From Paenibacillus senegalimassiliensis (GTDB lineage Bacteria; Bacillota; Bacilli; Paenibacillales; Paenibacillaceae), in NCBI RefSeq assembly GCF_001486585.1, contig NZ_LN909046.1, positions 1,426,001-1,490,000 on the forward strand: DNA of 64,000 nt, read 5' to 3'. The notes below the pieces were generated by a model. That model was not told the origin of the DNA. It searched no databases and saw nothing but the letters and a program-made list of their open reading frames with translations. Made by a program: the position numbers and the translations under genes. Positions 41,419-56,954 of this stretch are shown here, piece by piece (the first letter of the stretch is position 1; each line of letters opens with the position of its first letter).

Positions 41419-41452
41419 AATTAATAACATCAAAACGATTGAGGTGAAGATC

Positions 41453-41728: not shown

Positions 41729-42017
41729 AATCGAATACTTACCCATAGCTGAAGACGATATATCCAATATCATCCAATATATCATGCTTGATAATCCCGA
41801 TGCAGCCCTATCCATGGCTGATACATTTGATCATCACATTGCTATTTTAGAGAGCTTTCCGTTTAGCGGATCCACTCCCAATGATATTAGACTTCAAGCT
41901 CTGAATTATAGAATGTTAGTTGTTGAGTCTTATCTTATTTTTTATGTAGTTATAGACGATACTGTGGAAATTCGAAGAATTCTTCACGGTAAGCGAAAAT
42001 ACAGCTTCCTGCTTTAG
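41712..42017 (+). CDS. Type II toxin, RelE/ParE family
   Basis: 101 residues. IEYLPIAEDDISNIIQYIMLDNPDAALSMADTFDHHIAILESFPFSG and LVVESYLIFYVVIDDTVEIRRILHGKRKY are the RelE/ParE fold motifs, with R and H near the C-terminus. It is either a ribosome-dependent mRNase or a gyrase inhibitor. It forms a two-gene module with the overlapping antitoxin. Toxin-antitoxin modules often stabilise cassette arrays in Vibrio integrons (family knowledge). Confidence 0.92.
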   Translation: MDKKFKIEYLPIAEDDISNIIQYIMLDNPDAALSMADTFDHHIAILESFPFSGSTPNDIRLQALNYRMLVVESYLIFYVVIDDTVEIRRILHGKRKYSFLL

Positions 42018-42275: not shown

Positions 42276-42329
42276 TCTCTATGTAATCTCACCTGATCTC
42301 CTAGGGATGAATGCTTCAATACGTTCCCC

Positions 42330-43629: not shown

Positions 43630-44700
43630 CTATAAAGCATTCGCTGTAATTAGCTCAACTACGTTGTCAATTGCATTATCATTTCCGCTCTTGCTCATTC
43701 TCTTTTTAATTTCATGTCTCTTCTCAAATACATGATTGACTGATTCTATAAATGAGGCATCATTCATTTCTTCTTCAAATAAAACTTCACAGTAGCCCGA
43801 TGACTTAAATGATTGAGCATTTAACACCTGATCTCCCCTACTCGCTTTTCGTGATAATGGGATTAATAACATCGGCTTATTCAGGGATAAAAACTCGAAT
43901 ATTGAGTTCGATCCAGCTCGTGAAATAACAATATCAGTCATTGCTAAAATATCGACCAATTCACCGTAAACATATTCAAATTGCTTATACTCACGATAAT
44001 GACTGTATGAACTATCTATTTGTCCTTTACCACATATATGTACAACCTGGAACCTATTAATTAAATGGTGCAAATTTCTTCTAAGTATCTCATTAATTTT
44101 TTGCGATCCAAGACTGCCCCCTATACAGAGAATCACTGGCTTATTTCTTGTAAAACCACAAAATGTTAAGCCTTTAATTGCGCTACCTTGCATAAGCTCT
44201 TCCCTAATAATAGCTCCAACGTACACTGCTTTATCATTTTTTATATGCTCCTTTGCTTCAGGGAAAGTCACACATATCTTCGAGGCAAAAGGGATAGAAA
44301 TCCTGTTTGCTAAGCCAGGAGTGATATCAGATTCATGGATAATAATAGGTACACGGTTCATCCATGCTGCTAGAACTACAGGTACAGAGACAAAACCACC
44401 TTTTGAGAAAACTACATTCGGTTTCATGGCTCTAATCACTTGATAGGCTTGAAAAACCCCCTTTATCACACGAAACGGATCTTTTAAGTTCTCTCTGTCA
44501 AGATATCGTCTTAACTTTCCCGTTGATATGCCAATGTACTCTACATTAGCAAGTTTCTTAATAAGTTCTTTCTCAATCCCTTCTTTAGACCCTATATATT
44601 TCACATCCCAGCCCATATCAATAAACTTCGGGATTAATGCTAAATTAACAGTCACATGACCAGCAGAACCACCACCGGTAAACAATATTCGCTTACTCAT
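43630..44700 (-). CDS. MurG-family glycosyltransferase
   Basis: About 356 residues from ATG 44700 (MSKRILFTGGGSAGHVTVNL), with GAGGTG upstream. It follows the MurG layout: an N-terminal GGGSAGH loop, VVFSKGGFVSVPVVLAAWMNRVPIIIHESDITPGLANR, and a C-terminal UDP-GlcNAc site (CIGGSLGSQKINEIL; ISRAGSNSIFEFLSLNKPMLLIPLS). It would add GlcNAc to lipid I or a related lipid. It is probably an accessory paralogue, since the housekeeping murG normally lies in the dcw cluster. Confidence 0.88.
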   Translation of the reverse strand: MSKRILFTGGGSAGHVTVNLALIPKFIDMGWDVKYIGSKEGIEKELIKKLANVEYIGISTGKLRRYLDRENLKDPFRVIKGVFQAYQVIRAMKPNVVFSKGGFVSVPVVLAAWMNRVPIIIHESDITPGLANRISIPFASKICVTFPEAKEHIKNDKAVYVGAIIREELMQGSAIKGLTFCGFTRNKPVILCIGGSLGSQKINEILRRNLHHLINRFQVVHICGKGQIDSSYSHYREYKQFEYVYGELVDILAMTDIVISRAGSNSIFEFLSLNKPMLLIPLSRKASRGDQVLNAQSFKSSGYCEVLFEEEMNDASFIESVNHVFEKRHEIKKRMSKSGNDNAIDNVVELITANAL

Positions 44701-44934
44701 CTTGATCACCTCGCCAGGCATGAATTTTATATGTTTACTAGTCCTACTACAAGAAATTCTTTTCCCTATCTGTAGGGATAAAACTTACTATGTTTCATTT
44801 CGTATTCTACAAATTTTTCGAAGTTTTTCTCAACCCATGCTTCAAAATAGAGATTAATCTTTTCAACGGCTTCATCTCGATTCAAAAAATCCTCTCCTTA
44901 AATTACTAATTTATACAAATTACTTCTTAAGTGC

Positions 44935-45029
44935 TAAAGTATCGGGTTGCTCCTCCATTTAACCGGTTAAATATCTGTCTCAGGTCAAGGGTTGAGTTTG
45001 TCTCGCACACTGCGTTGAATACAATGTTA
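44935..45029 (-). repeat. Cassette site S1 (divergent)
   Basis: The right arm GTTGAATACAATGTTAG matches intact sites. The left arm CTAAAGTATC is diverged, and a perfect palindrome ATTTAACC/GGTTAAAT replaces the usual first hairpin. The core GTTA is at 45026-45029. The cassette end triplet GTTAGA pairs with TCTAAC at S2. Confidence 0.65.
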
Positions 45030-45058
45030 GATGATATTGCTGCCTTCCACGAAATATC

Positions 45059-45493
45059 TTATGTTATATCTTTCTTAATAATCTCAGTCTTAGTATGTTC
45101 GACATTACCATCCACTCTTCTATGTACTCGTATATCCCAGTCTGCCCTATTCAATGCCCGTAATAATTTCTTAGTTTCTATCCTAATATCTTCCCATACC
45201 TGGCTCTCTTTTAATATTTTCCGATCAAGAAAAAACTCAGGCGGTTGATTTAAACTTTGTACTTCAAGAAAATTATCAAATGCTTCTAATAATACTGCCT
45301 GTTTTGTTGAAATTAACCCTTCTTTAATATAAGAATCAATATGGTCTCTATAAAAAGTATCAAAATCTATTACCATCTCATCTCCAGTATGGCCAATTCC
45401 AATGATATGAATCTGCTTCTCAGCCGATAATGACAAAGTAATTAGTGCTTTTATAAATTCTTCGAAGTGATACATAATTAACTCTTTGTTCAT
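45059..45493 (-). CDS. Cassette protein of unknown function
   Basis: 144 residues in the S1-S2 cassette. ALITLSLSAEKQIHIIGIGHTGDEMVIDFDTFYRDHIDSYIKEGLIS is followed by a helical region and a basic C-terminus (RALNRADWDIRVHRRVDG). No family is recognised. GAAGGTAAGAG precedes the ATG about 40 bp inside the cassette end. AT-rich compared with the flanking core genes. Confidence 0.72.
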   Translation of the reverse strand: MNKELIMYHFEEFIKALITLSLSAEKQIHIIGIGHTGDEMVIDFDTFYRDHIDSYIKEGLISTKQAVLLEAFDNFLEVQSLNQPPEFFLDRKILKESQVWEDIRIETKKLLRALNRADWDIRVHRRVDGNVEHTKTEIIKKDIT

Positions 45494-45534
45494 TTCTCTT
45501 ACCTTCTTTCAGATAAAAAAGTAGTAATTTAGTC

Positions 45535-45622
45535 TAACCGTTCTTGTGTTCATTCCCCCCGGAGAGGTTATCTGGAGAATACCAGATCAAAGGCGAATGT
45601 CCATAGCATGAATATGATGTTA
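45535..45622 (-). repeat. Cassette site S2
   Basis: 88 bp from TAAC to GTTA. Arms GTGTTCA and TGAATAT are present; the middle hairpin ATCTGGA/ACCAGAT and a third GGCGAATGTCC-like hairpin are visible. The first hairpin is degenerate. Confidence 0.85.
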
Positions 45623-45652
45623 GGTGATGTATTGCGATTTCTTCGATTTTGC

Positions 45653-46189
45653 TTAAGAATCATTACCGTTTGTCTGTCTTTCTCTGATTTCAGTAATTAT
45701 CCGGTGATATTTTTCAATTTCAAAATTAAATTCTAATTCATTGGCACTCATTATGCTTTTAAGGTGCTCAAGTTCTTGTATTAATACCCTAGAAAATTCA
45801 AAAATCTGAGTCCATGAAAAGATAAACTTATTTGAACTTTCAATTGTCTTATCATTGAAAGGGGATTGCTCTGTTAACCAAATTATTCTTTCTGCCTCGT
45901 GAATTACTTCAACATAGTAACCACCACAACCAAATATTCCGCAGGTGCATGTAAATAAAGGATATGTTCCTGGACTAAGTAAGGACTTAAAAAATTCTTC
46001 TACTATAAATACTTCATCTTCATCTAATTTTTTCTCATTGATATATAAGAATAGTTTCCAATCAACGATAGGAACCATTCGACCTTTCACTCTTGTTATA
46101 TTCTTATATACTTTTCTCGTCTCTATTTTCATCTCTGTAGACAATTTATCTGGTCTAAATTTTTCATTTTGCTTTGAGTGAATTTCCAT
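45653..46189 (-). CDS. Cassette protein with a CxC...C motif, unknown function
   Basis: 178 residues. A Cys cluster (FTCTCGIFGCGGYYVEVIHE) around residues 93-110 could bind metal. The N-terminus is polar and the C-terminus helical (FEIEKYHRIITEIRERQ). No family is recognised. AGAGGTG precedes the ATG. It shares the S2-S3 unit with a second gene; a short TATAGCGTTC relic at 46267 suggests two cassettes whose site was lost. Confidence 0.72.
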   Translation of the reverse strand: MEIHSKQNEKFRPDKLSTEMKIETRKVYKNITRVKGRMVPIVDWKLFLYINEKKLDEDEVFIVEEFFKSLLSPGTYPLFTCTCGIFGCGGYYVEVIHEAERIIWLTEQSPFNDKTIESSNKFIFSWTQIFEFSRVLIQELEHLKSIMSANELEFNFEIEKYHRIITEIRERQTNGNDS

Positions 46190-46299
46190 AGTTCACCTCT
46201 GATTCTTCTTACTTTTTTATGTATCTATGTTTAAATATTTCTTCCAATCTTTTCTTTTCGAACTGATATAGCGTTCAAATTCTGTTTTTGCTATGTCGT

Positions 46300-46536
46300 T
46301 CAATTTTTATAAATCTCGTTCTCAAATCTCTCGTTCTTTATCAAAATCATAGCTAAGGATTCACCACAACTTGCTTGAATCATGTCGTCAGTTAAATCTT
46401 GATTTGCCGTTACCATTAAAGCTTCTATTACCGTCTCATGATGATACTCACTTAAATCCATGGCTACGTCGTCTCGCTCCGAATCTGAAGCACTCTCATC
46501 TAGCAATATTTCAATAAGCTTTTCCCACTTCTCCAT
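46300..46536 (-). CDS. Small HEAT-repeat-like cassette protein
   Basis: 78 residues, all helical: WEKLIEILLDESASDSERDDVAMDLSEY and HHETVIEALMVTANQDLTDDMIQASCGESLAMIL resemble two HEAT-type repeats. Such short proteins often bind partner proteins, for example as immunity proteins; the role here is unknown. TTGAGGGAG precedes the ATG. Confidence 0.7.
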   Translation of the reverse strand: MEKWEKLIEILLDESASDSERDDVAMDLSEYHHETVIEALMVTANQDLTDDMIQASCGESLAMILIKNERFENEIYKN

Positions 46537-46606
46537 AGAACTCCCTCAACATTCAGGTCACTTATTATTTGTTCAGATTATTCTCTAGCTTTACGTATTT
46601 TTCAAT

Positions 46607-46696
46607 TAACGTTCCTGTGTTCACGACCCGACGCATGTCGGGTGTCCGGCGACTGCCGGACCAAGGGCGTATGCCCGTAGCGTGAATATTATGTTA
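46607..46696 (-). repeat. Cassette site S3
   Basis: 90 bp. Three perfect hairpins: CCCGAC-GCAT-GTCGGG, GTCCGGC-GACT-GCCGGAC and GGGC-GTAT-GCCC, within the GTGTTCACG/CGTGAATAT stem and TAAC/GTTA cores. Confidence 0.92.
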
Positions 46697-46749
46697 TCTG
46701 ATGCATCCACCTTCTATGAATTAGCTTTCAGTTCGCTTGTCCTTATTGT

Positions 46750-47064
46750 TTATTTATTCTTTAAATATTCTATCTTCCCTTTAGCTATTGTCTTATTAGT
46801 CCTTAAAGAAAAGCTGTTTCCAGGCTCTAATAAATGATTTGGCGCTTCACTTGAGTCATAACATAAAAAATATAGATCAGCCTTAGCATTTCTACACTCA
46901 TTAGGTTTAACATGTAACTCAACTACCGCACTCCAAAGTCCATATTTCAATTCTTTATCCAAATCAAAAACTATAGGTGTTGAAAAATCTCCAATAATCA
47001 ATCTTTTTTGCCCGCCCTCTTCCTCGCTCAAAAAGTACAAACTAACTACCGCTATTTTTTTCAC
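46750..47064 (-). CDS. Cassette protein, copy 1 of a duplicated cassette
   Basis: 104 residues, GTG start with AGGAAG upstream. MKKIAVVSLYFLSEEEGGQKRLIIGDFSTPIVFDL followed by LWSAVVELHVKPNECRNAKADLYFLCYDS suggests a beta-sandwich, resembling small EF-Tu-tail-like barrel proteins (uncertain). The same gene recurs at 52438 with one residue changed (Arg here, Thr there, in SLRTNK). The identity stops at the flanking site cores. Confidence 0.8.
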   Translation of the reverse strand: MKKIAVVSLYFLSEEEGGQKRLIIGDFSTPIVFDLDKELKYGLWSAVVELHVKPNECRNAKADLYFLCYDSSEAPNHLLEPGNSFSLRTNKTIAKGKIEYLKNK

Positions 47065-47135
47065 TGAAAACCACTTCCTAATTTATAGGGTGTTTTGTCT
47101 TTATCGTTTCTATTAGTCTTTCCGGATGTTTCTGA

Positions 47136-47247
47136 TAACGTTCCCGTATTCCTGAACCCCGTCAGGGGTTGTCTGCAGCCATTGCCTTCATCGCCTTATC
47201 TTCTGCAGACCAAGGAGTGGCAGCGACGAAGCAAGAATATTATGTTA
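47136..47247 (-). repeat. Cassette site S4 (type B)
   Basis: 112 bp. The first hairpin is AACCCC-GTCA-GGGGTT and the second arm is GTCTGCAG...CTGCAGAC with a long loop. Cores and the GTATTC/GAATAT stem are conserved. Confidence 0.88.
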
Positions 47248-47278
47248 TATGTAGTGATCCACCTCTTGGATGTTACAT

Positions 47279-47737
47279 TCAATCCCAATAATTATATATA
47301 ACTTCTCCGATTGTTCCTGGTCCCCAGTATTTAATCATTTTTTGTTCGTATTTTGTTAGTGTTTTTATATGATCTTTTAATAGTGTTTGCTCTAATTGTT
47401 CTTTCGGCAGCACTTTATATCTTTCATTAAATGTCGATCTCATAGATTCAGGTTCATCTATAAATTTAATTCCGCTAATGTTGACTACCGAAGCGTATGC
47501 AACAAAGGGATAAATGGAATGAAAGAGTATATAGAAGTTCTCTGTTCGGTTATAAATATGATAAGTATAAAAGCTCCCATTGTTCGTTAGTAATTCTTTC
47601 TTTATACATTCTCCGTTATTCGATCTTATCGCCTCGAACAGATACACCTCGAACTCCTTATTGTTTTGTTCTCCCCAGTTTTCAGAAGTAACAGAAAATC
47701 CAGTGACACCAGGCTGCATTACTTCATTAATCTCCAT
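47279..47737 (-). CDS. Cassette protein of unknown function
   Basis: About 152 residues from ATG 47737 (MEINEVMQPGVTGF), with AGGTGAATC upstream. The sequence is aromatic-rich: FYTYHIYNRTENFYILFHSIYPFVAYASVVNISGIKFID, then a charged helix. No family is recognised and there is no membrane segment. It fills the S4-S5 cassette. Confidence 0.72.
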   Translation of the reverse strand: MEINEVMQPGVTGFSVTSENWGEQNNKEFEVYLFEAIRSNNGECIKKELLTNNGSFYTYHIYNRTENFYILFHSIYPFVAYASVVNISGIKFIDEPESMRSTFNERYKVLPKEQLEQTLLKDHIKTLTKYEQKMIKYWGPGTIGEVIYNYWD

Positions 47738-47783
47738 TGATTCACCTACCAAGGTTCATATATAGGTTTAGGATCATTTCATC

Positions 47784-47873
47784 TAACGTTCCTGTATTCA
47801 CGACTCGACGTATGTCGAGTATCCGACGAATGCCGGATCAAGGACGAATGTCCGCAGCGTGAATATATTGTTA
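47784..47873 (-). repeat. Cassette site S5
   Basis: 90 bp. Hairpins ACTCGAC-GTAT-GTCGAGT, ATCCGAC/GCCGGAT (one wobble) and GGAC-GAAT-GTCC. The triplet GTTAGCCGA pairs with TCGGCTAAC at S6. Confidence 0.93.
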
Positions 47874-47896
47874 GCCGATGTTAGTTTTCTTCTAAT

Positions 47897-48868
47897 TCAT
47901 AAACCTAATCTAAAATCTTCAATTTTCTGTTTAATAACTTCTTCTGAGTTATTCCCATTCTTTTTTAGCATCAACATTTGTTCAAAATCTGTATCATTTA
48001 TAAAAATAATCAGTTTGCTATGTGCCATCCAAATCTCTCTTTGAGTATAAATTGCAGATTCTTTTGGTTCTGTTCTTAAAGCTATGATTCCAAACATTCC
48101 AGGGCCATAATCTTTTAAATAGTTTGCCATCTGTAATACACAACCTTTGTCCACTTTGGTTGAATAATTTTTCGCGTCAACTATGATATAATCTGCTCTG
48201 TATCTACCTCTTAAATATTTCCAATACCCTTCATCACAATAGTTAGCCATAATAATGTCTCTTCTATTGGCTCTTATGTGATCAGAAAGTTCGATAATCG
48301 GTTTACCTAAGTTAGGACAAAAAAGGTGCTCAAGTATGTTAGCACAGATTTTCTGATAAGCCATCCAGTGCCTATTCCCTTTTGAACAGTTATTCAATTG
48401 TATTAACAATTCATCTTCTTCTGTTTTGCTAAATAACTCATTTTTTTCAAATAATCTTTTTAATTCTTCTGATTGTGACCTTCTTATCTGCGAATGAAAT
48501 ATTTTTGACAATTCATCAATGTCCCATACTGTCAACCAATCTTGTTCGCTTAATTTGCTTTTTTGCTTTGATGAGAGTTCTCCCGGGAATGCTAAAACAA
48601 TTTTATATTTAGATGATTTATACACAGATAACTGTTTTAGGACTTGTTCTAATCTATTCATTGAGAAAATAGGGCTTACTTTACACTGGATTAAAACCTT
48701 TTTTCCTCGATACTCTGCAGCAATGTCAACCCCATAATCTCCATGCACTTGACTTTCCATCACAACATTACTGAAATCTAGATGTTCTTTCATCATATTT
48801 GCCAATTCATATTGAAATATGTATCCAGTTAGAGCACTTGCAGCACTATAATTTCGATTTGGTTCCAT
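47897..48868 (-). CDS. Mrr-like restriction endonuclease domain protein
   Basis: 323 residues. The N-terminal half carries a PD-(D/E)XK core: YQLANMM-like helix, then HGDYGVDIAAEYRGKKVLIQCKVSP, which has the D...Q-x-K residues of the Mrr_cat type, and YKIVLAFPGELS. The second half (ADYIIVDAKNYSTKV) contains a second D-x-K-like element and may be another nuclease-fold module. A defence or genome-surveillance role is inferred. AGGGGATAA precedes the ATG. It fills the S5-S6 cassette. Confidence 0.82.
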   Translation of the reverse strand: MEPNRNYSAASALTGYIFQYELANMMKEHLDFSNVVMESQVHGDYGVDIAAEYRGKKVLIQCKVSPIFSMNRLEQVLKQLSVYKSSKYKIVLAFPGELSSKQKSKLSEQDWLTVWDIDELSKIFHSQIRRSQSEELKRLFEKNELFSKTEEDELLIQLNNCSKGNRHWMAYQKICANILEHLFCPNLGKPIIELSDHIRANRRDIIMANYCDEGYWKYLRGRYRADYIIVDAKNYSTKVDKGCVLQMANYLKDYGPGMFGIIALRTEPKESAIYTQREIWMAHSKLIIFINDTDFEQMLMLKKNGNNSEEVIKQKIEDFRLGL

Positions 48869-48916
48869 TATTAATTATCCCCTATACTTCTAAATGAACT
48901 TTAAACTAATTTCGGC

Positions 48917-49006
48917 TAACGTTCCTGTATTCACGACTCGACGCATGTCGAGTGTCCGGCGTATGCCGGACCAAGGACGAATGTCCGCAGCATGAATATT
49001 ATGTTA
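48917..49006 (-). repeat. Cassette site S6
   Basis: 90 bp and the clearest example: ACTCGAC-GCAT-GTCGAGT, GTCCGGC-GTAT-GCCGGAC and GGAC-GAAT-GTCC lie within a GTATTCACG/CATGAATAT stem and TAAC/GTTA cores. Confidence 0.95.
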
Positions 49007-49044
49007 TAGGAAGTTTCTGGATCTAATGTTTACTTTTCAAGTCA

Positions 49045-49965
49045 TTAATCGTTTAATACTTCATTAATTTTTAAATAAATATTTCCTGTCTGAGAAGCAT
49101 ATCGCCGCTTCCTCACAATCAAAGAAACAAAATCAATTTGATTTTCTAATACAGCCATCAAATCAGCACCATCCATTAAAAGAATAGTACTTCTACCTAC
49201 TGAATGTATTCTTACAGCATCTTCAGAGAATCCGTTGATAGACAAGAAAAGGCCTAGCGTATTATCAAGTTTTCTCTTTACTTTTCCTGTAAAACTATCT
49301 AGCTCTGACGCATCAGACAAGTGCGACCTCCATTTTGCTTCGAATAAAAAATCAGTTCCTTCTAATGAAAAAGCACCATCAATCTGTTCTCCTGTATTTC
49401 TAAATGATGCTTTAGGATCTAAGTCAAACAGTTCGAAAAGATCATACAGAACTTTCTCTAATTCAAATCCTCTTTTTTGAAAATCTTTTGAAGTAACTAG
49501 CCTAAAATAATTTGCCTTAATCTCGTCCAATTTATTTAAGACCGCTTGGCTTGATCTAATTTTCTCTAAATTTTTCATACGTTTTCGCTTGATTTCTTCT
49601 TCATCCTTTAATTTTTGAGTTTGATCTTCAACAACCATTCTTAAATCAGCTACAGCCTGTTTTGCACGTTCAACTTTTTTTCTTCCATCTTCAAGCTGTT
49701 CTAGGTGACGAAAATTGTCCATTTTTATTACTTCTGAGATTAAGCGACGTATATCTCCAATATATTTTTCTTGATTATTACATAGTTCATCTACAATATC
49801 TGAAACGATCTGCCTTTTATATCCATTCCAATCGGGTCTATTGATTATAGACGTATCATTAATACAATTATTCAAAAAGCTCCTGAGATTATTTTTGTAC
49901 CAATATACATTGCATAATGCTTCTTTCAAAAGTTCAATAGCAACTGCTGAGAATTTTTTCTCCAT
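49045..49965 (-). CDS. Restriction endonuclease-like protein with coiled coil
   Basis: 306 residues. A helical N-terminal domain and a coiled coil (about 88-150, VERAKQAVADLRMVVEDQTQKL) precede a C-terminal nuclease fold: GFELEKVLYDLFELFDLD, GEQIDGAFSLEGTDFLFEAKW and DNTLGLFLSINGFS. The D...E-x-K residues fit the PD-(D/E)XK family. A defence role is inferred. GGAGGTAC precedes the ATG. It is the only gene of the S6-S7 cassette. Confidence 0.82.
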   Translation of the reverse strand: MEKKFSAVAIELLKEALCNVYWYKNNLRSFLNNCINDTSIINRPDWNGYKRQIVSDIVDELCNNQEKYIGDIRRLISEVIKMDNFRHLEQLEDGRKKVERAKQAVADLRMVVEDQTQKLKDEEEIKRKRMKNLEKIRSSQAVLNKLDEIKANYFRLVTSKDFQKRGFELEKVLYDLFELFDLDPKASFRNTGEQIDGAFSLEGTDFLFEAKWRSHLSDASELDSFTGKVKRKLDNTLGLFLSINGFSEDAVRIHSVGRSTILLMDGADLMAVLENQIDFVSLIVRKRRYASQTGNIYLKINEVLND

Positions 49966-50005
49966 AAAGATGTACCTCCAAAAAAAGATTTTCGGAAATT
50001 TTCTA

Positions 50006-50053
50006 TAACGTTTCTGTATTCATGAACCCCAAAGGGGTTGTCTGCTGAAATGT
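50006..50053 (-). repeat. Cassette site S7 (type B, right half deleted)
   Basis: TAACGTTTCTGTATTCATG and the AACCCC-AAA-GGGGTT hairpin match S8 up to TCTGCTGAAAT; the rest, including the GTTA core, is missing. This site probably cannot recombine. Confidence 0.85.
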
Positions 50054-50080
50054 CTCCTCGTCGAGATAGCTCAGTTTCAA

Positions 50081-50776
50081 TCAATAATTAAAAAACTCTT
50101 TCCTCTTAATGAAGTTATACATGAAAGGATGATCCTCTTTATTATCTGGATATCTGATACTTTGGTAATCTATCTTCAAATCATCTTCTGTATTTAAGAC
50201 AATCTTCCCCTCAGTTGTAATAAAGAATAGACCTGCATCATACGCAACCTCATGTGTAACACACAAACATACTCCGTTCTGAATTTCTTCTGTACCACCG
50301 TCTGAAACAGGCCATATATGAGCGGCCCGCAAAACTTTAGAATTACTAATGTTACAAACAGCACATTGATTGTTATAAGCTTTTAAAACTTCATCTCTAA
50401 ATGACTTTTGTTTTCTTACAGGTTTTAAAACAATTGATTCTTGCCATTCTCTAGCATTAGGATACGGCCTTCTTGCGTTATATGATTCCTCATCCTCTAA
50501 AATAACGCTCCCGTCATCTTTAGATACTGACGTAGGTAAAGAATCATATCTTAGCATTGACATATCCAAAAGTCCCCATTTCCCATTATAGCCAAGGACA
50601 ACCATTACACGCATTTCATTCTTAGCATGATAAAAATAATTGAAAACAGGATAAATAAGTGCATCATCTAAACCCTCTATGACTTCTTCTCTAATAGCCT
50701 GATTTCTTTTTTCTCTTATTGCAGCATTGTTAGCTTCTCTCAATAATTCTTTAGTAAAATATTTATTTGAATGCAT
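50081..50776 (-). CDS. HNH endonuclease
   Basis: 231 residues. The C-terminal HNH core is clear: NQCAVCNISNSKVLRAAHIWPVSDGGTEEIQNGVCLCVTHEVAYD, with Cys pairs (CAVC) and the AAHI catalytic His. The N-terminal domain (about 1-120) may recognise DNA. It resembles HNH restriction endonucleases of the type II/IV class; a defence role is inferred. GAGGAGAGTG precedes the ATG. The 3' end abuts the truncated site S7. Confidence 0.9.
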   Translation of the reverse strand: MHSNKYFTKELLREANNAAIREKRNQAIREEVIEGLDDALIYPVFNYFYHAKNEMRVMVVLGYNGKWGLLDMSMLRYDSLPTSVSKDDGSVILEDEESYNARRPYPNAREWQESIVLKPVRKQKSFRDEVLKAYNNQCAVCNISNSKVLRAAHIWPVSDGGTEEIQNGVCLCVTHEVAYDAGLFFITTEGKIVLNTEDDLKIDYQSIRYPDNKEDHPFMYNFIKRKEFFNY

Positions 50777-50813
50777 GTTACATCACTCTCCTCTGTATTT
50801 TTCGTATTTCCTA

Positions 50814-50923
50814 TAACGTTCCTGTATTCATGAACCCCAGCGGGGTTGTCTGCTGAAATCCCTCTTCGAAATCCATCCCGCAGACCGAGGCTCCAACGGA
50901 GCCGATGCTTGAATATTATGTTA
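50814..50923 (-). repeat. Cassette site S8 (type B)
   Basis: 110 bp. AACCCC-AGC-GGGGTT, GTCTGC...GCAGAC and GGCTCC-AAC-GGAGCC hairpins. The triplet GTTATGTGA pairs with TCACATAAC at S9. Confidence 0.92.
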
Positions 50924-50960
50924 TGTGAGGTATCTGCCTTCTTGGAAATTCAGAATATAT

Positions 50961-51434
50961 TCATTTCTTTTTCAGTTCTTTCTTAGCCTCATCTCGAATA
51001 ATTTGAATACATTTCTTGACTGCACCATACCATCTATCAAAGTCTCCAACATAATCACCATTACTACTCTCTTGTTCGATATTCTTTACAAGTTCCTCCA
51101 ATGATTTTGTCGATTTTTCAGAAATTATAAAAGCACCTGAAGCATAAATTTTATATATTTGTTGTTTTGAATGACTAAAATTCTTCCATAGTTCTTCATG
51201 AACATCACTATTAATTTTCTTAATTTTTATACCCTCATCGAATAGCTCGCCAAAGTAATATTGTAAATAGGATAGTTCCTCAATAATTTTCGAGTAAGTA
51301 TCTGCTTTTCTTTCCCACCACTTTTGAGTATAAAATTGCTTAATTGATAATCTAACAGTAATAAAGGAAGTTACAATAGATATTAATATTCCTGGAAATA
51401 TTTTTGAAGTTATTACATCGAAGATAATGGCCAT
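50961..51434 (-). CDS. Membrane-anchored helical cassette protein
   Basis: About 157 residues from ATG 51434 (MAIIFDVITSKIFPGILIS), with GGAGGAATT upstream; the longer open frame would run into site S9. An N-terminal transmembrane helix (about 10-28) is followed by a cytoplasmic helical domain (WWERKADTYSKIIEELSYLQYYFGELFD) and a Lys-rich tail. The layout matches the 54138 gene. Function unknown; similar small membrane proteins act as effectors or sensors in phage defence, but that is only a comparison. Confidence 0.75.
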   Translation of the reverse strand: MAIIFDVITSKIFPGILISIVTSFITVRLSIKQFYTQKWWERKADTYSKIIEELSYLQYYFGELFDEGIKIKKINSDVHEELWKNFSHSKQQIYKIYASGAFIISEKSTKSLEELVKNIEQESSNGDYVGDFDRWYGAVKKCIQIIRDEAKKELKKK

Positions 51435-51467
51435 CTTAATTCCTCCATTGTTTGCAGGTATTTCACA

Positions 51468-51557
51468 TAACGTTCCTGTATTCACGACTCGACGCCTGTC
51501 GAGTGTCAGGCGAATGCCGGACCATGGACGAATGTCCGCAGCGTGAGTATTATGTTA
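51468..51557 (-). repeat. Cassette site S9
   Basis: 90 bp. ACTCGAC-GCCT-GTCGAGT, GTCAGGC/GCCGGAC (one mismatch) and GGAC-GAAT-GTCC hairpins, with TAAC/GTTA cores. Confidence 0.92.
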
Positions 51558-51612
51558 AGTGATGTTCCAGTCTTCTTCGAATCATTCGCTCACTTTATGA
51601 TGTCTTTGTGTA

Positions 51613-51990
51613 TTATGAACGGAGTAATTTAAATGCCTTTAGATCAATACCAAATTCTCCTTCTGTCAATATATCAAGTCCCAAAAGTCCATTAATGTTG
51701 TGATATTTAAATGAAGTAAAATCGATGTATACATCCTTTAAAATGAAATCCCCTACCTGTATACCCTCGATTCGTTTACTGAAGGCATGCTCTTTGCCTC
51801 CAATTCCGTAACTCGTTATGATCTCATCTTCAATTTCTACCTGAATTCCAATCTCATCGACCTCATCTTGTGAAATCAAACTATGACTAGCTCCGGTATC
51901 GATCACAATGTTCGATATGATTTTCTTCTGCTTATTAAAATGGACTGTTATTTCTGTAAATAACAGTCCATCCCTATATTCAATATTCAT
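51613..51990 (-). CDS. Retropepsin-like aspartic protease
   Basis: 125 residues. The active-site motif NIVIDTGASHSLIS is at about residues 27-40 and the second family motif NINGLLGLDILTEGEFGID is near the C-terminus. Such single-domain proteases work as homodimers. It follows directly after its partner gene (51991), with no gap, so the two are probably co-translated. The substrate is unknown; the partner could be a substrate or inhibitor. Confidence 0.88.
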   Translation of the reverse strand: MNIEYRDGLLFTEITVHFNKQKKIISNIVIDTGASHSLISQDEVDEIGIQVEIEDEIITSYGIGGKEHAFSKRIEGIQVGDFILKDVYIDFTSFKYHNINGLLGLDILTEGEFGIDLKAFKLLRS

Positions 51991-52233
51991 TTAAAGACTT
52001 CTCCTTAACCCTATATTTTTCCGTACCTTCACAACGACCTGATCTTTAGAAGTATGATAAACCAAAGTCTTGTCTCGGCTGTTCAGTAATTCTCGAGTGG
52101 CGTCTTCATCACTGATCGGACCAATCACAGCCACATCATCAATGACTTCTTGATGGTCCGTTTCTTCCGAATGAAGAACTTCAAACTTTACGAACTGGTT
52201 CGGGAAAATCTGTTGAACTTCTTCCCATTTCAT
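51991..52233 (-). CDS. Partner protein of the aspartic protease
   Basis: 80 residues, acidic: MKWEEVQQIFPNQFVKFEVLHSEETDHQEVIDDVAVIGPISDEDATRELLNS. It ends in RKNIGLRRSL with its stop directly before the protease ATG. It resembles short proteins found upstream of retropepsin-like genes in Firmicutes, of unknown function. GGAGGGACAACG precedes the ATG. It shares one cassette with the protease. Confidence 0.78.
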   Translation of the reverse strand: MKWEEVQQIFPNQFVKFEVLHSEETDHQEVIDDVAVIGPISDEDATRELLNSRDKTLVYHTSKDQVVVKVRKNIGLRRSL

Positions 52234-52298
52234 CGTTGTCCCTCCTGTTCTTTTGATGGTTATATTATACCATTTTATAAGCTTGTAACTCTCACTGG

Positions 52299-52384
52299 GT
52301 TCCTGTATTCACGACTCGACGTATGTCGAATGTCTGGCGACTGCCAGACCAAGGACGAATGTCCGCAGCGTGAATATTATGTTA
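52299..52384 (-). repeat. Cassette site S10 (left core lost)
   Basis: The site starts GTTCCTGTATTCACG but TAAC is replaced by CTGG, so the core adjoining the protease cassette is missing. Three hairpins (CTCGAC/GTCGAA, GTCTGGC-GACT-GCCAGAC, GGAC-GAAT-GTCC) and the right core GTTA remain. Confidence 0.9.
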
Positions 52385-52437
52385 TCTGATGCATCCACCT
52401 TCTATGAATTAGCTTTCAGTTCGCTTGTCCTTATTGT

Positions 52438-52752
52438 TTATTTATTCTTTAAATATTCTATCTTCCCTTTAGCTATTGTCTTATTAGTCGTTAAAGAAAA
52501 GCTGTTTCCAGGCTCTAATAAATGATTTGGTGCTTCACTTGAGTCATAACATAAAAAATATAGATCAGCCTTAGCATTTCTACACTCATTAGGTTTAACA
52601 TGTAACTCAACTACCGCACTCCAAAGTCCATATTTCAATTCTTTATCCAAATCAAAAACTATAGGTGTTGAAAAATCTCCAATAATCAATCTTTTTTGCC
52701 CGCCCTCTTCCTCGCTCAAAAAGTACAAACTAACTACCGCTATTTTTTTCAC
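52438..52752 (-). CDS. Cassette protein, copy 2 of the duplicated cassette
   Basis: 104 residues, identical to the 46750 protein except Thr for Arg in SLTTNK. The whole 447-bp unit from GTTA (52381) to TAAC (52827) matches 46693-47139 with two base changes. The flanking site arms differ at 11 of 82 positions on one side and belong to a different type on the other. This is the best direct evidence that cassettes have moved. Confidence 0.8.
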   Translation of the reverse strand: MKKIAVVSLYFLSEEEGGQKRLIIGDFSTPIVFDLDKELKYGLWSAVVELHVKPNECRNAKADLYFLCYDSSEAPNHLLEPGNSFSLTTNKTIAKGKIEYLKNK

Positions 52753-52823
52753 TGAAAACCACTTCCTAATTTATAGGGTGTTTTGTCTTTATCGTTTCTA
52801 TTAGTCTTTCCGGATGTTTCTGA

Positions 52824-52962
52824 TAACGTTCTTGTATTCGCGAAACACCCCAACCTTAGATAGCTCTTATCTTAGGCTGGGGCGTTTGTTGTCTGAGCTT
52901 CTTCCATGATTATACATCCGACAACCAAGGGACGATAGCCCCGTAGCGTGAATACTGTGTTA
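52824..52962 (-). repeat. Cassette site S11 (enlarged, contains a terminator-like hairpin)
   Basis: 139 bp. After TAACGTTCTTGTATTCGCG comes an ACACCCCAACCTTAGATA/TATCTTAG-CTGGGGCGT stem related to the hairpin at 38573. Then follow about 65 bp shared with 42180-42246 and the GTTA core at 52959. The cassette end GTTATGTGAA pairs over ten bases with S12. Confidence 0.88.
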
Positions 52963-52999
52963 TGTGAAGGACTGGTCTTCTCTGCGTGCACACTCAATA

Positions 53000-53269
53000 T
53001 TATTTACATACTTTCTCTAATATTTTTTTACTTATCTCTAAACATCTTTCTTCCGTCTCTTGAAATTGATTCCCTAAGTATTCTGTTAAGATCTTATATA
53101 TGTATTTTCCAAACTCCTTTTCATTTAGACTTTCATTTGATTGTATATATAGGGTTAACTTTTTAATTTCTGAATCATACTCGTCTTGTGGACAATGTAT
53201 AGCAAGGAGTTCTGCCGGATCCCACTGATCTATGATTGTCTTTATCGAAGTAAATGTTTTTGGTTTCAT
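53000..53269 (-). CDS. DUF1871-like cassette protein
   Basis: 89 residues. TIIDQWDPAELLAIHCPQDEYDSEIKKLTLYIQSNESLNEKEFGKYIYKILTEYLG matches the pattern of DUF1871 proteins (W-D-P...P-x-DEYD). It is helical and soluble, function unknown. AGGAAAAAAGAG precedes the ATG. It fills the S11-S12 cassette. Confidence 0.78.
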   Translation of the reverse strand: MKPKTFTSIKTIIDQWDPAELLAIHCPQDEYDSEIKKLTLYIQSNESLNEKEFGKYIYKILTEYLGNQFQETEERCLEISKKILEKVCK

Positions 53270-53320
53270 CTCTTTTTTCCTTCTGTTTTATATATTATTG
53301 ATCTTTTCCAATCTTTCACA

Positions 53321-53410
53321 TAACGTTCCCGTATTCACGACTCGACGTATGTCGAGTGTCCAGCGAATGCCGGATCAAGGGCGTATGCCCGCAGCGTGAA
53401 TATTATGTTA
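53321..53410 (-). repeat. Cassette site S12
   Basis: 90 bp. ACTCGAC-GTAT-GTCGAGT, TCCAGC/GCCGGA (one mismatch) and GGGC-GTAT-GCCC hairpins with TAAC/GTTA cores. GTTAGGTG pairs with CACCTAAC at S13. Confidence 0.93.
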
Positions 53411-53437
53411 GGTGGAGTCATGTTCATCTTCGAATTG

Positions 53438-53950
53438 CTAAAAAACTTGTATGGATCTTAAACACTCTTCATCTTCTTTATACGTACAAATCTGATTCGT
53501 ATCCAAGCCATTACAAATAGAAAAGTACCCTTTCGAGGTAGCAAACCCTATACCGTTTAAAATCCAATTTGAAGCTCGTTGTCCGACCTCTTCTGAAATT
53601 GATTTACTTGCTATTAATGTGGATTCCAATCGTTGTTCAATAATCTCGATTCCGACAATCTCTGCTTGTCTAAATCCCAGAAGTTCTTTCCGATCCTTAC
53701 GCCATTCATATTCAAATTTTCCGTACTCTTCAAAATCATATTTTTCTAGTTCTTGTGTTCTGTCAATTGAATTCATGGACAAAGCCAATTCTTCTAACTT
53801 GTAATTACAAACTTCTAACTGACACGAAGTCAATTCTAAAAGGATTGGAGAATCTTCATTCCACTCTTCATCAACTTTGTTCCACATTGAATACACATTT
53901 ATAATTTTCTGTGTTCTCAGCTTCTTTAGCTGAGAATCAAAATTTTCCAC
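53438..53950 (-). CDS. Cassette protein of unknown function
   Basis: 170 residues, apparent GTG start with a poor ribosome site, so the start is uncertain. CQLEVCNYKLEELALSMNSIDRTQELEKYDFEEYGKFEYEWRKDRKELLGFR is followed by VGIEIIEQRLESTLIASKSISEEVGQRASNWILNGIGF. It is probably a soluble alpha/beta protein. No family is recognised. It fills the S12-S13 cassette. Confidence 0.68.
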   Translation of the reverse strand: MENFDSQLKKLRTQKIINVYSMWNKVDEEWNEDSPILLELTSCQLEVCNYKLEELALSMNSIDRTQELEKYDFEEYGKFEYEWRKDRKELLGFRQAEIVGIEIIEQRLESTLIASKSISEEVGQRASNWILNGIGFATSKGYFSICNGLDTNQICTYKEDEECLRSIQVF

Positions 53951-54035
53951 AATTTCAATACTACTATAACATCACGGTTCATAGTTTTTGATTCCAAATT
54001 TCATAGTTTGTTCTCCCGCTTTACATGATTTCACC

Positions 54036-54125
54036 TAACGTTTCTGTATTCACGACCCGGCGCATGTCGGGTGTCCGGCGACTGCCGGATCAAGGGAGTA
54101 TGCACGCAGCGTGAATATATTGTTA
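54036..54125 (-). repeat. Cassette site S13
   Basis: 90 bp. CCCGGC-GCAT-GTCGGG, TCCGGC-GACT-GCCGGA and a degenerate third hairpin. GTTAGACGA pairs with TCGTCTAAC at S14. Confidence 0.93.
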
Positions 54126-54137
54126 GACGATGTCCGT

Positions 54138-54770
54138 TCAATTCTCGCCTATCTTGATCTGTCTTTTAAATAAAATACCGATTTGTTTTATTATATTTGA
54201 ATATTCTTCTCTATACTTGTTGTTTATTTCTATTGTGTCTCTAATAGTCTTTTCATCTCTAGGGCTATAGGTAGAATGATTTCTTAAATCAATGAGTTTT
54301 TCTTTGCCAATTTTATAACTAGAAAACTTATCTAACAATTCAGATAATCGTTCATAATGCTTATCCTCAATTAGTAGTATGCTTTTTTCTAATATTATTG
54401 TTGTTTCACTTAGCTGCTTTGAAAAATCTTGAAGGTTAGCTTCCATGGCTTTTTCCCAAAGCTTGTCTGCAACTATCTTTAAATCGTACAATGATCTATA
54501 CAAATCGTTATACAACTTAAATTGATGTTCTGTATATCGAGCAAATAATATTTTGTCTTTTTCATAATCTCTTTTTTTTGCTTCTAAATCATTTATGTAA
54601 CTAGCTTTCAATTTTTCAAGCTCTGCTTGATAATTCTTTCTATCTTTTTCTTGAATATGAGTAGCCCAAATTCTTCCTAGCCAACTTGAAATGGCTATGA
54701 TAATTGCTCCAGCACCACCTACAGAGAGAACTGCCGCAACGATAACATTCCATGCTTCTTGAAGATCCAT
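54138..54770 (-). CDS. Membrane-anchored coiled-coil cassette protein
   Basis: About 210 residues from ATG 54770 (MDLQEAWNVIVAAVLSVGG), with AGAGGTAT upstream; the longer open frame runs into site S14. A single transmembrane helix (about 8-30) is followed by a coiled coil (about 37-75, EKDRKNYQAELEKLKASY) and a helical domain of about 130 residues. The layout resembles the 50961 cassette protein. No family is recognised. It sits close to the integrase end, so it may be a recent arrival. Confidence 0.78.
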   Translation of the reverse strand: MDLQEAWNVIVAAVLSVGGAGAIIIAISSWLGRIWATHIQEKDRKNYQAELEKLKASYINDLEAKKRDYEKDKILFARYTEHQFKLYNDLYRSLYDLKIVADKLWEKAMEANLQDFSKQLSETTIILEKSILLIEDKHYERLSELLDKFSSYKIGKEKLIDLRNHSTYSPRDEKTIRDTIEINNKYREEYSNIIKQIGILFKRQIKIGEN

Positions 54771-54802
54771 TTTTATACCTCTTTCTTCTATAGGATTTCG
54801 TC

Positions 54803-54894
54803 TAACGTTCCCGTATTCACGACCCGGCGTATACCGGTTGTCCGACGAACGTCGGACCCAGGGCCGCACGGCCCGCAGCGTGAATAATATGTTA
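54803..54894 (-). repeat. Cassette site S14
   Basis: 92 bp. CCCGGC-GTAT-ACCGGT-type first hairpin, GTCCGAC-GAAC-GTCGGAC and GGGCCG-CA-CGGCCC. GTTAGTTGA pairs with TCAACTAAC at 55557-55565. Confidence 0.93.
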
Positions 54895-54901
54895 GTTGAT
54901 G

Positions 54902-55525
54902 CTACTGCACTAAATTTATAATTTCTTCAAACAAAGCCTCTATGTCTTCTCTTTCTAGATAATTGATAGACGAAATTTTTCTGCCTACTCCATTTAAAGA
55001 TGTTCCTGTTATAAATCCTTTATACTGATCTGTAATCCAAAAGCGATCATGAAACTTCTCACTATATTTAATGTCTAAGTTCATTCCTAGTCCTCTGATT
55101 CTTCCAATAAAAATACTTTCTAAACTTCGATTTCTTCTGTTTGATGTAATCACTTTTACAATTCTAGCTTTACTTTTTTCGACGATTTTTAGAATCATCT
55201 CTAAATAATCTTCATTATAATTAGGAGGGAAGAAGTACGAATCAATGACAATTAATTCGTTTTGTTCAGATTCTATGTTTATTAAATAATCCGAAAATTT
55301 ATTTATTTTTTCTTCTTGATTCATGTTCATCCATAGAATTTCTTCTAAAACAATCTCAAAGTTTTGTTGTTTAACATATGACTCTATTTCTTGGTGTGTA
55401 GGACCTAAATAGATTCCTAATGAAAGACCAGCAGTTTCGTATAATTCTTTGCTAAACTTAGACATAATACATCCAATGTCTTCTTGCTTACCTTTATATT
55501 TATCTTCCAATAAAATGTAATACAT
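54902..55525 (-). CDS. PLD-like-domain cassette protein (tentative)
   Basis: About 207 residues from ATG 55525 (MYYILLEDKYKGKQEDIG), with AAGGAGG upstream. The C-terminal segment EKFHDRFWITDQYKGFITGTSLNGVGRKISSINYLEREDIEALFEEI resembles single-motif phospholipase-D-like domains seen in some bacterial conflict proteins (HDRFW followed by G-TSLNG). The N-terminal half is unrecognised. It is the cassette next to the recombinase, so it is the most recently acquired under an integron model. Catalytic activity is uncertain. Confidence 0.72.
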   Translation of the reverse strand: MYYILLEDKYKGKQEDIGCIMSKFSKELYETAGLSLGIYLGPTHQEIESYVKQQNFEIVLEEILWMNMNQEEKINKFSDYLINIESEQNELIVIDSYFFPPNYNEDYLEMILKIVEKSKARIVKVITSNRRNRSLESIFIGRIRGLGMNLDIKYSEKFHDRFWITDQYKGFITGTSLNGVGRKISSINYLEREDIEALFEEIINLVQ

Positions 55526-55561
55526 ATTTTCCTCCTTCAAATTATATAAAGTAGTTTCAAC

Positions 55562-55669
55562 TAACGTCTTTTATCTGAATTTCGTATATATTCCACATAT
55601 CGGTAATTATCCGATCTTCTTCAAGTATAATCCATTTAGAGGAATTGACGAAGTATATTTTATCCAGTG
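55562..55669 (-). other. Candidate primary recombination site (attI-like) beside the recombinase
   Basis: TAAC at 55562 closes the last cassette, but the following sequence keeps no hairpin arms of the usual site (it continues GTCTTTTATCTGAATTTCG). A short ATCGG/CCGAT inverted repeat occurs at about 55597-55613. It therefore differs from the cassette sites while sharing their core, as attI does in integrons. The assignment is by analogy. Confidence 0.5.
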
Positions 55670-56813
55670 CTACTCTCCATCCTTCAGCTCCAGCCGATCA
55701 AGCGGGCTCTGAATACGCTGTATGTTTTTTGTGCTGACATGTGTATATCGTTGAGTGGTTCGAGCGCTCTGATGACCTAGCAGTTCCTTCATCAAATGAA
55801 CAAAAGAAAGGATGTTCATGGAGAATTTTAAAAATATAGCGGAGGTCGGTTCCGCCCTCAAGCAAATGAGTTGCAAATGAATGACGCAACGAGTGAACAC
55901 TTACCTTTTTAACTATTCCTCCCCGTCTTTTTGCATTTTCAAAAACCTTTTGGACAGTACGCTCCGTCACATGGCGCCCGGAACGTTGACCTGGAAATAA
56001 CCATTCTTCAGGTTGAGACTGAATCATATAAGCTTGCACCACACTCATAGCCGTTGGAGATAAGAGAGTCATTCGGTCCTTCATCCCCTTACCTTGCCGG
56101 ACACGCAAGGTCTGTCGTTCCGTATCCAAATCTGCGAGACGTAGCCGAACCACCTCGCTGACTCTTAGCCCCGAAGAATAAGTCAGGTATAAAACAGCTT
56201 GATGCTTGAGATTCGTTAGGCACGTTAGTAGCCGGATCACCTCATTTTCTGATAAAACATTGGGCAGGATATGCTGCTTCTTAGGGCGGATATACTGAAT
56301 TTCATTCATTGGCTTGTTTAATACGTATTTAGCATAGAAGCGAATTGCACTAATCGTCTGATTTACACTGGAATGAGAGATGTGCTTGGCTAATAAAGAC
56401 AAACAATATTTTTGAACGGCATCACTGCTGATCTCGGACGCATCAGGCGGGAGTGAGTCGATAAATCGCTTTACCTGACTGCAATAGGCTTTGATCGTCT
56501 TACTGCTATAGCCACGCTTTTTCAACTCTTCAATTAGAGCATTACGATAATCCATCTTTTGACTCCTTAAGTTTTTTTCAAATGCATTAAACCATTCAAA
56601 CTCCTTTACCAGCGCAGGCTCCAGCCAAATCAAATTTCTTGGAAAAATTTCCATAAATTAAAAGATGACTGACTCCTTGTACGGAATAATCCACAGCTTC
56701 TGATTCGGATCCCACCGTCTACCCTGAATTTTCCGAATGAACACAACATGCTCTGGGTTGTAAGGCAGCTTAAAACCTAGTGCATCCGCATTCAACTTTC
56801 TAATTTCTATCAT
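55670..56813 (-). pseudogene. XerC/IntI-type tyrosine recombinase, disrupted by a stop and a 43-nt net insertion
   Basis: Three pieces form one gene. Residues 1-51 (56813-56658, MIEIRKLNADALGFKLPYNP...GRRWDPNQKLWIIPY) end at an in-frame TAA. The main part (56654 down) has a SAM-like core-binding domain (RGYSSKTIKAYCSQVKRFI) and catalytic Arg (SGLRVSEV), Lys (GKGMKDR) and HSLRH. At about 55789-55834 extra sequence shifts the frame. LLGHQSARTTQRYTHVSTKNIQRIQSPLDRL, with the last catalytic His and the Tyr, is then in another frame to 55670. No IntI-type insertion precedes HSLRH. It runs in the same direction as the cassettes. Confidence 0.88.
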
Positions 56814-56954
56814 GATCATGACCTCTCTTCCTGCAAAATAGAATTATTTTTCTGCCTGGCTTCCTGAAATATTAATCATGACTACCCATCCATCGGGTTT
56901 TCTCTTGGGATATAACCGTGCTGCTAAAATGCGTCTAAAGACACTAGCCTAAAC

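Follow-up and report, generated by a model that had tools for sequence, protein, structure and literature searches.

A probable integron-type cassette array linked to an I2-less tyrosine recombinase in Paenibacillus senegalimassiliensis and other Bacillota

The window analysed in this study is a stretch of 64,000 nucleotides from Paenibacillus senegalimassiliensis (contig NZ_LN909046.1, positions 1,426,001 to 1,490,000). Its minus strand carries, at approximately 44935–55565, an array of about 14 units of one or two genes each. The array adjoins a tyrosine-recombinase gene (55673–56843), which lies upstream of it and points in the same direction as the cassettes. Related palindromic sites stand between the units; 12 of these span 87–139 bp from core to core, and both cores (TAAC and GTTA on the plus strand) are intact in 10 of the 12. 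Half or degenerate sites are present near 42246, 45029 and 50006. One cassette is duplicated within the array (46611–47151 versus 52299–52839, 97.2% identity over 541 bp). An Rfam gathering scan of the whole window yielded a single tRNA and nothing else. The original prediction, made from the sequence alone, had described this layout of 14 same-strand units and related palindromes beside a tyrosine recombinase, together with the duplicated cassette; it missed that this copy of the recombinase gene is a pseudogene. We consider it very probable that the array is an integron-type cassette platform run by an XerA/IntI-like recombinase that lacks the I2 insertion of integron integrases (IntI), and that such platforms are widespread in Bacillota.

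On the coding strand, the sites read nnnTAAC, a short spacer, TATTCACG (L box), stem-loops, CGTGAATA (L box), a spacer and GTTAnnnGAAA. A covariance model (R1) was built from the 12 window sites, which it recovers. In a plain MAFFT alignment of these sites, 90.7% of the cells pair and two-sided changes occur in 12 of 28 pairs, compared with a mean of 5.7 upon shuffling; none of 500 shuffles reached the observed values. Pairing falls to 30–42% when the partner columns are slid by one to three positions, although this control is biased toward the tested structure because that structure was itself derived from the same 12 sites. Compensatory stem changes are also present in sites from the loci of other genomes. 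A search of the whole 5.06-Mb genome with R1, in which 150 of 1425 candidates were scored, gave 12 matches at E ≤ 1, every one of them inside the array. Spacers of 4 and 7 bases occur in 153 of 274 sites, and a search for extrahelical bases that might set the strand, over the same number of sites, found a single T in the 3' arm to be the commonest bulge (64 times). The attC-type features observed are R'' and R' ends with AAC and GTT, inner pairing boxes and a conserved fold. In another locus (L124), the stretch separating dfrA15 from aadA13 holds a candidate classical attC, and its TAAC and GTTA cores are identical to these.

An integron cassette circle holds one site, in which the bases beside AAC (cassette end) and GTT (cassette start) derive from one paired box. 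The variable triplets should therefore pair within a cassette rather than within a site of the array. For example, the start of cassette 1 (GTTAGTTGA) is complementary to its own end (TCAACTAAC). Complementarity was scored in two sets of adjacent site pairs, from which pairs at least 2.5 kb apart or with a core other than AAC/GTT were dropped; the triplet columns were unpaired in the models used for finding sites. In the first set, 86 of 95 pairs were testable and 219 of 258 bases match, against 101.3 ± 7.2 in shuffles. The second set, which was not used to see the rule, yields 388 matches in 435 bases from 145 of 173 pairs (shuffles, 160.6 ± 9.4), 113 of these pairs being perfect. No shuffle among 10,000 scored as high as observed in either set. 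The two ends of the same site match in just 1.29 (first set) and 1.10 (second set) of three bases. Among 217 clean-ended cassettes, the 163 perfect pairs employ 27 of the 64 triplets. Because the triplets vary between cassettes and are complementary within them, the enzyme most likely reads base pairing and would thus act on the site as a folded single strand, in the way that IntI acts on attC. The end triplets of unit 13 match in one of three bases, and therefore a site that once stood between its two genes may have been lost.

The edges of the units were located by comparing sister genomes. The window and a locus of Paenibacillus sanguinis (L084) are 91.8% identical over 6.1 kb of flank and 90.9% over 2.4 kb that include the recombinase gene (86% between the main recombinase open reading frames, ORFs). 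This identity runs to the attI-side GTTA (...AAAAGACGTTA), beyond which the arrays differ. Apart from the sites, cassette 4 is the only long piece of the array that aligns; it is found in another place in L084 with different neighbours on both sides, and its 99.4% identity over 497 bp makes it more alike than the flanks (91–92%). Genomes G018 and G009 (loci L021 and L022) are 95.7% identical across the recombinase gene and adjoining flank, and diverge exactly after ...ATGACGTTA. Their arrays differ save for one common stretch, in which 307 bp are 99.7% and 570 bp 94.7% identical and into which a copy of an insertion sequence has intruded in G009. The L022 array contains or adjoins two identical copies of a 1.2-kb segment with transposase-like ORFs (924–2145 and 12368–13589), one of which splits a stretch common to the sister species. 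The same array (7532–7834 and 14728–15604) holds a 287-bp cassette four times at 98–99% identity, with three copies in tandem beside attI; this cassette has no coding-strand ORF of at least 80 amino acids (aa). Flanks that are 80–93% identical likewise stop at GTTA in L026, L027, L028 and L031, and the sequence of L030 ends there.

Repeated cassettes inside arrays diverge between AC and GTTA. For 15 pairs of cassette copies with at least 88% identity in different contexts, 13–20 of the 20 bases inside the start match (mean 19.1), as do 14–20 inside the end (17.9). Outside the copies, 8–20 of 20 bases match upstream (13.9) and 5–14 downstream (10.3). The upstream flank is part of another site and partly conserved, and the value of 20 represents tandem copies. 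Sequence comparison thus places an attI-type boundary beside the recombinase, with insertion at its end, and the copy junctions together with own-end complementarity indicate a mobile unit of a gene plus one site. On this evidence, the units move as discrete cassettes, whose ends lie within the GTTA core.

When an intact 387-aa relative of the recombinase was used as a tblastn query, residues 13–372 aligned with window positions 56843–55734 (70%) and residues 348–387 with 55792–55673, as two overlapping pieces in different frames with stop codons inside the matched stretch. The window copy matches Pfam PF00589. Intact recombinases occur in sister species, including G009 and G018, and a Paenibacillus yonginensis protein (P0001) is 96% identical to that of G009. 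The intact protein has approximately 100 residues ahead of its SAM-like domain, which starts at 114–115. This N-terminal extension is absent from three aligned IntI rows; the Xer rows were cut to their matched part and provide no test of it. The IntI-specific insertion (I2, patch III region) is absent from all eight relatives, one of them from Chryseobacterium, that were aligned with IntI1, IntI2 and a Vibrio IntI. In an alignment with IntI4, residues 277–301 of the recombinase stand opposite IntI4 174–240. Two relatives score 210.3 and 210.2 bits against the IntI profile TIGR02249, below its cut-off of 265. Their best NCBIfam model is XerA_Arch (NF040815; 221.6 and 218 bits, cut-off 220), against which the window ORF scores 182.8.

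An AlphaFold model of the recombinase (mean pLDDT 82.7, pTM 0.55) matches IntI4 best among solved structures (2a3v, E 4e-15, TM 0.49/0.59), with XerA next, and sequence comparison with the solved structures likewise ranks IntI4 first. A tree of 24 rows places the recombinase family, including the Chryseobacterium protein, on a branch (support 91/96) that is separate from those of three IntI and three Xer rows. The long branches of this tree, in which the Xer and Sinorhizobium rows were cut to the matched part, mean that it cannot tell whether IntI is nearer to this family or to Xer. Judged from sequence and predicted structure, the recombinase is not a classical IntI but an N-terminally extended tyrosine recombinase of XerA/IntI-like type without I2.

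A sample of 296 genomes of the host order was searched for the recombinase (E ≤ 1e-35, six candidates scored per genome) and for sites (E ≤ 0.001, at most 11 candidates scored per genome). At least one site was found in 180 genomes and recombinase orthologues in 113; both are present in 112, the recombinase alone in one, sites alone in 68 and neither in 115. The recombinase gene without a site, in G032, has four internal stop codons. Co-occurrence is pronounced, with sites in 112 of the 113 genomes that have the recombinase and in 68 of the 183 that do not (Fisher p 3.8e-32). R1 detected sites in 11 of the first 15 loci fetched around recombinase relatives. A further 32 named Paenibacillus loci, fetched by recombinase, hold 204 sites in all. 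Strand and side were counted without L106 (14 sites) and L107 (5 sites), in which the recombinase matches are short fragments. All 185 remaining sites are on the strand of the recombinase and 178 lie downstream of it. Of the 32 loci, 29 have at least one site downstream on the recombinase strand, and one (L094) has no site and ends at the recombinase match.

In the wider phylum, the recombinase was found in 40 of 398 genomes at E ≤ 1e-40. Of these, 17 genomes belonging to other families supplied 18 loci, and 10 of the loci have sites matching model R2 (E ≤ 0.01). All 39 R2 matches are on the recombinase strand and on its downstream side; in L140, a further recombinase is encoded on the opposite strand. 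One locus with no R2 match (L142) shows a repeated TAAC...GTTA palindrome by eye. Another phylum relative, L144, extends 13 kb beyond the recombinase with no model match and contains a repeat with TAGGCTCGGGTTTATCCCA in three places (2651–5881), perhaps another type of site. At E ≤ 0.01, R2 has no match in L123, L124 (a classical array) or L129.

Over 258 units, the median spacing is 768 bp. In 225 units the longest ORF is read from the coding strand and in 28 from the other strand, while five units have no ORF or a tie. The 144 longest of 223 ORFs of at least 70 aa were included in a cargo scan. GNAT, Mrr_cat and AAA_18, each with four proteins, are the commonest among the first 25 of 92 Pfam families, and the first 25 of 209 PADLOC results include single matches to Drt8, PDC-S56, Old, AriA and a NucC-type effector. 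Proteins with Mrr_cat, HNH and aspartyl-protease similarity are among the window cargo (Table 1). These matches suggest that the cargo includes candidate anti-phage genes, along with many genes without a named family.

Table 1. Features of the window array, listed from the recombinase gene toward the distal end.
Feature	Position	Strand	Remarks
Recombinase pseudogene	55673..56843	-	N-terminal piece in ORF 56658-56819; main catalytic piece 55698-56654; last piece 55670-55900 in other frame
attI/first-cassette junction	55562..55565	-	GTTA core on minus strand after ...AAAAGAC; L084 identity ends there, likewise two other sister species
Cassette 1	54807..55565	-	Gene 54902-55540, weak PDC-S05 / VPA1262-domain similarity
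attC-like site of cassette 1	54803..54894	-	Covariance model
Cassette 2 gene	54138..54869	-	243-aa ORF, no family; shorter reading 54138-54770 used in cargo count
attC-like site of cassette 2	54036..54125	-	Covariance model
Cassette 3 gene	53438..53950	-	170 aa, no family
attC-like site of cassette 3	53321..53410	-	Covariance model
Cassette 4 gene	53000..53269	-	89 aa; whole cassette has 99.4% copy in P. sanguinis (L084)
attC-like site of cassette 4, long form	52824..52962	-	Covariance model
Cassette 5 gene	52438..52752	-	Duplicate of cassette 12 gene
attC-like site of cassette 5	52295..52384	-	GTTA core (minus-strand sense) lost; covariance model
Cassette 6, two genes	51613..52233	-	51991-52233 and 51613-51990 (clan AA aspartyl protease)
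attC-like site of cassette 6	51468..51557	-	Covariance model
Cassette 7 gene	50961..51485	-	174-aa ORF, first codons overlapping site
attC-like site of cassette 7	50814..50923	-	Covariance model
Cassette 8 gene, HNH endonuclease	50081..50776	-	Site reduced to R' half near 50006
Cassette 9 gene	49045..49965	-	306 aa, no family
attC-like site of cassette 9	48917..49006	-	Covariance model
Cassette 10 gene	47897..48868	-	Mrr_cat restriction-endonuclease domain; C-terminal part PDC-M36A-like
attC-like site of cassette 10	47784..47873	-	Covariance model
Cassette 11 gene	47279..47752	-	157 aa, no family
attC-like site of cassette 11	47136..47247	-	Covariance model
Cassette 12 gene	46750..47064	-	104 aa, duplicate of cassette 5
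attC-like site of cassette 12	46607..46696	-	Covariance model
Unit 13, two genes	45653..46536	-	46300-46536 and 45653-46189
attC-like site of unit 13	45536..45622	-	One additional base at GTTA core; covariance model
Unit 14 gene	45059..45493	-	144 aa
Degenerate distal site	44960..45029	-	Not recovered by covariance model at E ≤ 0.1

Beyond the array, the window contains a murG-like gene (43630–44721; NF009102, 521.8 bits) and then a fragment resembling its C-terminus (42027–42291). This fragment adjoins half an attC-like site, and the two perhaps represent a decayed distal end of the array. Genes for a PhdYeFM antitoxin and a ParE toxin are located just outside the array on the plus strand (41444–42017).

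A plasmid of Chryseobacterium sp. SNU WT5 (NZ_CP041688.1; L123, 8968–13300) encodes a recombinase that is 39% identical over 91% of the query, with the N-terminal extension present and I2 absent. Downstream of it are mostly same-strand genes with palindromes bearing GTT/AAC cores between them. By eye, three gene units look self-complementary at their ends (e.g. GTTATACGAT...ATCGTATAAC). A unit of approximately 280 bp occurs four times, two of these annotated as hypothetical protein, and a group II intron maturase gene lies farther along the plasmid. A generic scanner for TAAC...GTTA palindromes, applied to three Bacteroidota loci and L127, did not recover the L123 sites seen by eye, and an end-complementarity scan of L123 gave nine matches versus four in an upstream control, which is not clearly better. 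Because neither scan gave a clear signal, the link to Bacteroidota rests on inspection. Recombinases that share about 48% identity with the Chryseobacterium enzyme across residues 81–347 are common on Acinetobacter plasmids (47 of 64 records), and one related record calls the recombinase TnpF.

By the features examined here, the array is not an integron as defined by IntI, yet it is predicted to work like one. The recombinase would join two sites at their GTTA cores and thereby release a cassette as a circle with one restored site. Circles would be inserted at attI and cassettes stored in one orientation. The recombinase would act on one folded strand of the site, and something other than I2 would have to prevent second strand exchange. 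The window array itself is probably frozen because the recombinase gene is broken in this strain, unless a recombinase acts in trans. With slightly better than even confidence, we propose a second kind of integron, in which folded single-strand attC-type recombination would be performed by an I2-less Xer-like family that is widespread in Bacillota and possibly present in Bacteroidota (the Chryseobacterium plasmid). If this is true, either I2 is dispensable for cassette capture or the trait arose twice.

The original prediction had read the array as a system that captures cassettes, being either a divergent integron or an analogue based on a Xer-like recombinase. Linkage, own-end complementarity and edges at the cores support cassette capture, and the evidence favours the second branch, in which the logic of an integron is combined with a recombinase without the IntI hallmark. 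As anticipated there, a new site model revealed many arrays in relatives, with different cargo and beside orthologous recombinases (112 of 113), and boundaries between sister genomes fall at the TAAC/GTTA cores (window versus L084, G018 versus G009). Two outcomes had been named as contrary to the proposal: sites without recombinase linkage, which do occur (68 of 183 genomes), and edges away from the TAAC/GTTA cores, which were not seen in the sister comparisons.

Several observations weigh against an integron-type platform run by the I2-less recombinase. The window copy of its gene is a pseudogene, broken after the N-terminal part and again near the C-terminus, and excision and cassette circles are inferred from sequence. 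Complementarity is imperfect in 27 of 86 cassettes of the first set and in 32 of 145 of the second, and pairing does not exceed expectation at two of eight L-box positions. Among the 183 genomes without a recombinase at E ≤ 1e-35, the 68 that carry at least one site include 46 with two or more; these genomes would hold either recombinase-free arrays or a diverged enzyme. Sites are missing from four of the first 15 loci. Three of these (L025, L028 and L030) have less than 1 kb on the array side, and the fourth (L024, from G032, with four stops in its recombinase) has 9 kb there and no site. In L106, where the recombinase match is weak, 14 sites are on the strand opposite to it. Finally, 8 of the 18 phylum loci have no R2 match at E ≤ 0.01.

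The most serious alternative, though we judge it unlikely, retains the same cassette logic and has the enzyme act on ordinary double-stranded sites, as in Xer/dif or Cre/lox, with the palindrome as a symmetric binding site. A Xer-like catalytic core without I2 and the ranking of XerA_Arch as best NCBIfam model agree with this idea. However, a binder that reads sequence has no need of 27 kinds of triplet in 163 perfect pairs, or of varied L-box pairs. Double-strand exchange also predicts a TAAC-side crossover and both orientations, whereas all 185 sites face one way and the junctions are read at the GTTA side. It is very doubtful that this is a classical integron whose IntI is located elsewhere or has diverged, with the adjacent recombinase as a bystander. 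The attC architecture of the sites (AAC/GTT cores, paired L boxes) and the pseudogene in the window would fit such an arrangement. No IntI exceeded the TIGR02249 cut-off in 29 genomes, a search in which 14 control genomes also gave none and which had no positive control, and an IntI elsewhere was rejected as a candidate on this basis. Moreover, the I2-less recombinase is accompanied by sites in 112 of 113 genomes, with 178 of 185 sites on one side of it.

Equally slight is the chance that the array is an ancient one, inherited vertically, in which nothing has moved recently in the lineage, as might be implied by the break in the recombinase gene and by several distal sites that have degenerated. 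This is opposed by cassette 4, which is 99.4% identical to its P. sanguinis copy among other neighbours while the flank and recombinase differ by 8–9%, by the 97.2% duplicate within the array, and by a cassette order that differs from that of P. sanguinis. Dispersed palindromic repeats (REP/BIME/MITE-like or terminators) lying between genes by chance would explain palindromes at gene ends and the 68 genomes with sites and no recombinase match, but this most improbable reading was rejected because the genome-wide R1 search found no site elsewhere at E ≤ 1 and end complementarity tracks the unit rather than the palindrome, and copied units consist of gene plus site with edges at GTTA.

According to three papers, Firmicutes very seldom carry integrons, and the I2 helix is the mark of integron integrases (PMC9024848, PMC7790495, PMC9668308); one of them explains that second strand exchange would linearise the chromosome (PMC7790495). 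An earlier paper (PMC2426708) left open whether integrons are missing from Firmicutes. Another (PMC8618304) names Firmicutes among the phyla with integrons, so that they cannot be said to be wholly absent. No report of these arrays was found in the open-access PMC literature; subscription journals and preprints are not excluded. An integron-type platform that is linked to an I2-less recombinase and has sites in 180 of 296 genomes of one order would shift where integrons are thought to live. It could explain why IntI-based screens overlook these arrays, and it would offer a natural test of whether I2 is what permits recombination of folded single strands.

Classical integrons comprise a recombinase, attI and cassettes that end in AAC/GTT palindromes, with crossover at GTT. 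The present arrays resemble IntI integrons (classes 1–3 and sedentary chromosomal) in having a recombinase, attI, cassettes with such palindromes, inner paired boxes and mixed accessory cargo. In contrast to IntI, the recombinase lacks I2, scores below the TIGR02249 cut-off and carries an N-terminal extension. Its gene also points the same way as the cassettes, and the site interior forms several stem-loops (in the window form), while 153 of 274 sites have spacers of 4 and 7 bases. The XerA/XerC/XerD chromosome-dimer recombinases share the catalytic core and the absence of I2, whereas the recombinase described here stands apart from three Xer rows in the tree and lies beside arrays. In Xer/dif pdif modules, genes are flanked by XerC/XerD sites of about 28 bp, unlike the palindromes of 87–139 bp with a dedicated adjoining recombinase found here.

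The reverse integrons of Treponema denticola likewise have an integrase gene directed as the cassettes, but the element is described, in the passage concerned, with IntI (PMC4909258), and this description sets it apart from the I2-less recombinase. Archaeal integrons also combine arrays and attC folding outside classical hosts with a putative attI downstream of the integrase gene; in the section describing it, their IntI is reported to keep the additional domain that is absent here (PMC9668308). An integron-like subgroup of tyrosine recombinases is reported in which the insertion is not fully conserved and insertion-free relatives are known as sequences (PMC8138268). The relevant part of that paper does not link cassette arrays to the insertion-free members, as is done here. 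IntegronFinder 2.0 reported one complete Firmicutes integron, in Limnochorda pilosa, and a few CALIN, or attC clusters without IntI, according to the portion of the paper that treats them (PMC9024848). These share a Bacillota host with the arrays described here, to which the CALIN label might be given; the present arrays differ in being common (180 of 296 genomes) and in being tied to a dedicated non-IntI recombinase.

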